From: Acetobacter cibinongensis
GTDB lineage: Bacteria > Pseudomonadota > Alphaproteobacteria > Acetobacterales > Acetobacteraceae
Reading direction: 5' to 3'
Assembly: GCF_000963925.1 (NCBI RefSeq)
Contig: NZ_BAMV01000017.1
Location: forward strand, 1 to 64,000
DNA length: 64,000 nucleotides
Positions within the stretch are counted from its first letter, which is position 1. Each line of letters begins with the position of its first letter. Under the pieces are notes generated by a model. It worked only from the letters and a program-made list of their open reading frames with translations, had not been told where the DNA came from and searched no databases. Shown piece after piece: positions 54,618 to 55,382 of the stretch. The position numbers and the translations under genes were made by a program.

Positions 54618-55382
54618 ATGCGTATTCTTTTTGCAGAAGATAATCAGGCTTTGGCCGCGAAGGTCGTGCCTTTTTTAAACCGGGCTGGATTGGTCACAGA
54701 TATCGCGACATCAGGGCAGGATGCTCTCGATATGCTGCGCAGCTACAGTTACGGGCTTGCGATTATAGAGCTTATCATGCCGGACATGGATGGGTATGAT
54801 ATCATCAGCACACTCCGGACCATGAAAATTCAGACGCCGGTTATCGTTTTGTCAGCCATTGATAAATCGCATTCCAAGATCAAGGCGTTCTCAAACGGGG
54901 CCGATGATTACCTGACCAAACCATTTGATGTTGATGAACTCGTGGCTCGCATACAGGCTATTCTGCGGCGCTCCGGTGGGTTTTCCAGCCCGGTTACGCA
55001 GGTTGGCAATCTGACTATGGACCTGAACACCCATACGGTGACCGTTAACGCCCAACCTGTTCATCTGACCGGCAAAGAATTTTCTATCCTTGAACTTCTG
55101 ATCCTGCGCAAGGACATTGCTTTGACCAAAGAGATGTTTCTCAACCATCTTTATGGCGGCAGAGATGAGCCAGATGTAAAAATCATTGATGTTTTTATCT
55201 GCAAATTGCGCAAGAAATTGCAGGAAGCAGGCGCCGGAAACCTGATTTCTACCATTTGGGGGCGTGGCTATATTCTGAACGATCCCATGAACCGCAAAAA
55301 TGCTATTCCCACCTCTCCCAACAAGCCTCTGGTCACCCCTTCAAGCTTTGAAACCAACCTGTGTCATCAGGTAGCAGGATGA
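54618..55382 (+). CDS. CtrA-type response regulator with Glu at the phosphorylation site
   Basis: 254-residue OmpR/CtrA-family regulator. The winged-helix domain is unmistakably CtrA-like: [13 protein letters not shown] (170-181) and [14 protein letters not shown] (188-201), then WGRGYIL. The receiver domain starts MRILFAEDN. The position of the phosphorylated Asp51 is Glu51 ([14 protein letters not shown], codon GAG at 54768-54770), and the acidic-pocket residue at 9 is Asn instead of Asp; Ser79 and Lys101 are kept. It therefore probably does not accept phosphate normally and may be permanently active-like. The C-terminus has about 30 extra residues ending VAG rather than the Ala-Ala tag by which Caulobacter CtrA is degraded. 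No histidine kinase is adjacent. Confidence 0.92.
   Translation: [254 protein letters not shown]

Follow-up and report, generated by a model that had tools for sequence, protein, structure and literature searches.

CtrA is the textbook target of a phosphorelay, in which it is activated by phosphate placed on one aspartate and delivered by ChpT. The laboratory D51E allele of Caulobacter CtrA (available part of PMC12186491) is likewise a CtrA-type regulator with glutamate at that same position, whereas in the locus described here Glu51 is natural, lineage-wide and present in the sole copy found, with ChpT undetected and without an Ala-Ala tail. Aspartate-less receivers and pseudo-receivers (PMC4395418 and PMC12632262, parts available) also consist of a receiver without a phospho-acceptor, and glutamate is given as the commonest replacement in such receivers in the accessible part of PMC4395418; the present CtrA differs from these in that it descends from a phosphorelay target and in that intermediate states survive. 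Neither main text mentions CtrA by name. ChxR of Chlamydia (PMC3960148, in part) is not a converted CtrA and comes from an obligate intracellular parasite. In the Rhodospirillales, chpT and cckA of the CtrA phosphorelay are described as patchy or missing (available parts of PMC2877005 and PMC8116508); these papers deal, in those parts, with the presence or absence of genes, while the loss of the phospho-acceptor is a feature of the lineage studied here. For CtrA and the phosphorelay in acetic acid bacteria, the titles and abstract beginnings listed from the open-access literature contained no report of such a change at residue 51, and CtrA as a whole word is absent from the metaproteomic paper PMC13214618.

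The ctrA gene of the window and its product

The window, i.e. the whole stretch of 64,000 nucleotides of Acetobacter cibinongensis DNA that was analysed, carries a ctrA orthologue starting with ATG and ending with TGA (Table 1). Pfam identified Response_reg (residues 3-113) and Trans_reg_C (146-220) in its product, i.e. the receiver and winged helix of the OmpR/PhoB architecture. The best of 98 NCBIfam families was the CtrA model NF045991, which is named for Rhodobacterales and has a cut-off of 350 bits, not reached by the score of 309. A first-pass annotation had recognised the gene by a diagnostic CtrA sequence in the DNA-binding half; this was borne out, as comparison with the 107 CtrA proteins of ChpT-bearing relatives gave a mean identity of 87% over residues 170-200. 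Additionally, at 28 of the 58 positions of the CtrA-type DNA-binding core (165-222) the residue of the window is shared by more than 95% of up to 212 aligned proteins.

Table 1. Positions of ctrA, its functional parts and its neighbours in the window
Feature	Position	Strand	Basis
tsaE, neighbour	53667..54152	-	genus locus comparison
AT-rich intergenic region, tsaE to ctrA	54153..54617	.	sequence
ctrA orthologue with natural Glu51, 254 aa	54618..55382	+	ORF translation, Pfam, NCBIfam
Receiver domain, residues 1-115, without phospho-acceptor Asp	54618..54962	+	Pfam PF00072, alignments
E7-D8 acidic pair, intact	54636..54641	+	alignment with 1kgs
N9, adjoining the acidic pair but outside it	54642..54644	+	alignment with 1kgs
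Codon 51, GAG, Glu replacing the phospho-acceptor Asp	54768..54770	+	translation, alignments
S79, pocket Ser/Thr	54852..54854	+	alignment
K101, pocket Lys, covarying with residue 51	54918..54920	+	alignment
Winged-helix DNA-binding domain, about residues 126-222, CtrA core	54993..55283	+	PF00486, alignment
Tail, ending VAG, without terminal Ala-Ala	55284..55382	+	translation
thiD (phosphomethylpyrimidine kinase), neighbour	55385..56230	-	genus locus comparison
Phosphoglucomutase/phosphomannomutase family gene, presumably glmM, neighbour	56194..57597	-	genus locus comparison

Translation of the open reading frame agrees with the annotated glutamate at residue 51. Residue 9 is asparagine, as had been stated, but it does not belong to the acidic pocket in which it had been placed: the E-D pair of the solved regulator 1kgs, which is the Mg2+-binding pair in PhoB/DrrD, faces E7-D8 and the residue after it faces N9. 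The pocket thus retains E7, D8, S79 and K101 and is altered at the phospho-acceptor alone, and the protein has what defines an aspartate-less receiver, namely a receiver domain from which the phospho-acceptor Asp is absent. An AlphaFold2 model (mean pLDDT 75.3) placed five strands and four helices in the receiver. Helix 4 was of low confidence in this model (residues 81-93) and likewise in that of an Asp51 control (83-94), folded alike, and no structural difference between the Glu51 and Asp51 forms is therefore claimed. The C-terminus reads CHQVAG, and the lack of a terminal Ala-Ala, which the annotation had also noted, extends to all 31 members of the window's sub-clade (one of which, L019, is shortened by a frameshift); an Ala-Ala ending, by contrast, is carried by 15/15 proteins of the genus's other sub-clade, 2/32 of the neighbouring genera and 69/107 from ChpT-bearing genomes.

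The annotation had further suggested that the gene may be a paralogue and that a second, canonical Asp51 CtrA be sought. The host genome, estimated by the completeness tool at 100%, contains 14 matches to the window's CtrA at E <=0.001, the next best of which is 36% identical and without the CtrA core; no second canonical CtrA was found there, leaving the window's protein as the sole CtrA found in this genome.

On the fetched stretches around ctrA, tsaE and the presumed glmM were both present in 43 of 46 loci of the genus (presence only), and thiD was absent from those of the five His51 loci. The 300 bases upstream of the window's ctrA contain a single GANTC (at -113) and no CtrA box even when one mismatch is allowed, and in the entire window the exact TTAA-N7-TTAA occurs once (25509; 0.23 expected, and at least one in 20/100 shuffles). 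A perfect CtrA box was present in the 300 upstream bases of 6/46 genus loci (L017, L021, L022, L023, L024 and L040), that of the window not being among them. In three Asp51 species (L021, L023 and L024) the perfect box TTAATACAACCTTAA lies 46-48 bases upstream of ctrA, a position that perhaps reflects autoregulation.

ChpT and residue 51 in the genus and family

ChpT was undetected in 49/49 genomes of the genus, with nothing above the Pfam cut-off and at most 35.3 bits for our own model, A1, which was built from 13 ChpT proteins of the family; the open frames surrounding the A1 matches measure 390-875 aa. One weak Pfam match was seen in the genus (G044, 18.3 bits, in a 269-aa frame), and it was not recovered with A1. 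Across the family sample A1 reached at least 92 bits in 119/200 genomes, the other matches listed scoring at most 36.2 bits, so that a clear score gap divides ChpT-bearing from ChpT-less genomes; the Pfam model matched at E <=1e-5 in 112/200. The first-pass suggestion that this CtrA is free of the CckA-ChpT phosphorelay therefore finds support as regards ChpT. It does not extend to CckA: two CckA-like kinases of the window's genome scored far below the NF046020 cut-off, but so did the Caulobacter control, and with our own CckA model and alignment several ChpT-bearing genomes also scored low, for which reasons no claim of CckA loss is made. On contig C103 of the window's genome, locus L012 encodes a hybrid kinase with a receiver at each end and a CckA-like core, adjoined by open reading frames that are presumably hslU and hslV. 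At locus L479 of the ChpT-bearing genome G184 the order is an ATPase that is FliI-like by its domains, ctrA, CheR, CheB, a CheY-like receiver, CheW and CheA, chpT being on a different contig. At L480 (genome G173) the reading frame with a ChpT match adjoins a gene that starts like the CheA of L479, with ctrA on the same stretch.

A ctrA match (E <=1e-60) was obtained in 46/49 genomes of the genus, one in each, and one or two matches at E 1e-50 were obtained in 167/200 of the family sample. The resulting alignment holds 212 CtrA rows: 107 from ChpT-bearing genomes, 59 from ChpT-less genomes of the family and 46 from the genus, including that of the window. Residue 51 was unreadable in three partial rows (L158, L161 and L162), and five divergent loci (L165-L169) were left out before it was counted; these encode a divergent CtrA-like regulator in genera g68, g96 and g24 with Arg, or in L167 Ser, at position 51. 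ChpT-bearing genomes supplied 106 proteins with a readable residue 51, of which 105 have Asp and one has Glu. Outside the genus, the 57 proteins from genomes without ChpT carry Glu (33), Asp (21), Ala (2) or Gly (1), and only 6 of the genomes of these 21 Asp51 proteins, which speak against the link between residue 51 and ChpT, are less than 90% complete. Fisher's test of this association, uncorrected for kinship, gave p ~4e-20.

In the genus itself residue 51 is Glu in 20 proteins, Asp in eight, Thr in eight, His in five, Ser in four and Asn in one; sister species thus do not all have Asp51, and Glu51 is shared within the lineage. Codon-51 error in sequencing or assembly can be dismissed, and an isolated mutation with it, in view of these 20/46 Glu51 orthologues, encoded by GAA (10) and GAG (10). 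Moreover, Glu51 is not a matter of chance, since named genome records have Asp51 in 80/80 CtrA loci (the best 80 of the 587 matches listed), which are 45-56% identical to the window's protein. One metagenome-assembled genome titled Asaia bogorensis carries an Asp51 CtrA (L363) unlike the Glu51 proteins of the family, and its title may be wrong.

Glutamate occupies position 51 in 15/15 proteins of the other sub-clade of the genus and 27/32 of the neighbouring genera. In the window's sub-clade, by comparison, column 51 holds D, T, E, H, S or N and, among the 115 columns of the receiver, comes 110th by degree of conservation. Glu51 is hence not required, same-locus orthologues having Thr, His, Ser, Asn or Asp in its place. 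Seven species of the genus (L015-L017, L020, L021, L023 and L024) combine Asp51 with E7, D8, S79 and K101, and in these phosphorylation by another donor is possible.

Covariation, selection and history of residue 51

Sub-clade and neighbour groups for the pocket counts were drawn by hand from the CtrA tree. Lys or Arg is found at position 101 in 183/188 proteins with an acidic residue 51 and in 1/21 with a non-acidic one, a link that amounts to about three independent events. In the window's sub-clade Lys101 is missing from 18/18 non-acidic and 2/13 acidic proteins, and the 51-101 pairings in the genus are E or D with K, T with E, H with D, S with Q, A or H, and N with E. D8 is kept in 104/106 proteins from genomes with ChpT, 15/15 of the other genus sub-clade, 23/30 readable proteins of the window's sub-clade, 1/32 of the neighbouring genera and 9/25 of the remaining ChpT-less rows.

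The receiver stays under purifying selection. Of 435 pairs the divergence filter left 46, which cover the D, T, H, S and N forms and include none with Glu51, and in none of them did the receiver dN/dS exceed 0.19; for the Glu51 receivers of the other genus sub-clade the median was 0.04 (38/105 pairs). Between the window and the related genome G023, dN was 0.09 with dS saturated. dN/dS was low in the receiver and the DNA-binding domain alike.

A CtrA tree of 133 chosen rows, from which column 51 was omitted, requires at least 18 changes at this residue. Several of its rows lie on long branches, and the window's sub-clade (31 rows, support 100) is not joined to the other sub-clade of the genus, unlike in a tree of RpoB, where the genus is a single group (support 99). 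The RpoB tree comprises 75 genomes (78 were chosen, three of which had no RpoB match), and one of its branches (support 100) separates 47 genomes, those of the genus among them, from the other 28; ChpT is undetected in all 47, whereas the 28 are mixed. Close to this branch Asp51 occurs in G103, G118 and G061, Ala in G049 and Glu in G087. With the root placed, by assumption, among ChpT bearers, Fitch reconstruction on the RpoB tree assigned Glu to the genus (20 rows), to the genus with its neighbouring genera (41 rows) and to these with G061 and G087 (43 rows), and either Asp or Glu at 46 rows; the node from which the window and the Asp group descend is likewise D or E. By parsimony, Asp51 seems to have been regained more than once. 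The non-acidic codons at position 51 (AAC, AGC, AGT, ACC, CAC and CAT) resemble those of Asp more closely than those of Glu, and the window's sub-clade may therefore have passed through Asp; the window's own Glu51 may be either retained or regained.

Contrasts within genera among these other 28 genomes of the RpoB tree point both ways. The link between residue 51 and ChpT is supported by G194 (no ChpT, Glu) versus G131 (ChpT, Asp) and by G214 (no ChpT, Gly) versus G076 (ChpT, Asp), although the odd proteins of G194 and G214 lie on very long branches of the CtrA tree, contamination stands at 5% in either genome, and a second CtrA-like match occurs in G214. It is opposed by G100/G176 and G146/G244, in which ChpT was lost and Asp51 kept, and by G222 (78% complete; ChpT not found, Asp51 kept) versus G173. 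Furthermore, G192 (no ChpT, Glu) agrees with the link and G179 (ChpT, Glu) does not. Kinship-aware pair tests were not significant on either the RpoB tree (8 pairs; on average 2.2 in which residue 51 changed with ChpT loss, 0.2 against it and 5.6 without a difference) or the CtrA tree (3 pairs).

Discussion

The CtrA of the window is an atypical response regulator whose receiver has most likely ceased to be an aspartyl-phosphate switch, a reading that we hold with reasonable confidence. To judge from the sequences, CtrA in this lineage probably works without phosphorylation, and the picture of a CtrA turned pseudo-receiver where ChpT is missing suits it better than that of a fixed phosphomimetic paralogue, as drawn in the first-pass annotation.

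Glu51 could instead be a true natural phosphomimetic, selected because it would lock CtrA in an active, dimeric state and perhaps make it constitutively active, as the first-pass annotation had suggested, which is possible rather than likely and partly compatible with the pseudo-receiver reading. The prevalence of Glu51 in the genus's other sub-clade (15/15) and in the neighbouring genera (27/32) fits such selection, as does the service of ctrA.D51E as a phosphomimetic allele in Caulobacter (available part of PMC12186491). However, the low conservation rank of residue 51 in the window's own sub-clade and the apparent regain of Asp speak against it, and sister proteins with Thr, His, Ser or Asn suggest that CtrA can do without Glu51.

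A regulator that lost its role along with ChpT and is drifting towards loss is an unlikely alternative, to which some genomes nonetheless lend colour: G077 and G163 (g30; 1.9 and 2.1 Mb) have no CtrA match at E <=1e-28, the best matches in G038, G039, G041, G124, G190, G147 and G203 are 32-37% identical (G041 being the one inspected), and the ctrA of the related species G023 (L019) is frameshifted by one extra A near codon 188, in the DNA-binding domain. This base lies inside an A-run, however, and may be a sequencing error, while the low dN/dS of both domains and the retention of the gene in 46/49 genomes of the genus run counter to decay.

We find it equally improbable that the protein is still phosphorylated, on Glu51 or elsewhere, through a diverged kinase or a phosphotransferase other than ChpT. 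The window's CtrA still has E7, D8, S79 and K101, CckA-like kinases are present, and substitute phosphotransferases have been proposed for such species (PMC2877005, in the part available). Against this stand the orthologues that have Thr, His or Ser at position 51 with Glu, Asp, Gln, Ala or His at position 101, which lack the standard pocket.

As for how a CtrA turned pseudo-receiver may have arisen, loss of ChpT would have released CtrA from phosphorylation, and Glu51 may at first have substituted for the charge of the phosphate or preserved a 51-101 salt bridge; the present protein would then act via its amount or via contacts of its receiver. That the receiver is still under selection while the 51-101 pair diversified would point to a new receiver input. 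We lean, if only slightly, towards the fuller account in which a whole lineage, having lost ChpT, made CtrA phosphorylation-independent, a natural D51E was kept across many genera, the 51-101 pair then diversified within the genus, and the receiver, remaining under selection, took on a new input.

A lineage in which ChpT is not found, the acceptor is replaced and CtrA is conserved allows one to ask by what path a phospho-switch becomes a pseudo-receiver, whether this path usually leads through a phosphomimetic residue and what controls CtrA when phosphorylation does not. A single genus, whose species differ at position 51 (D, E, T, H, S or N), provides a natural mutant series.
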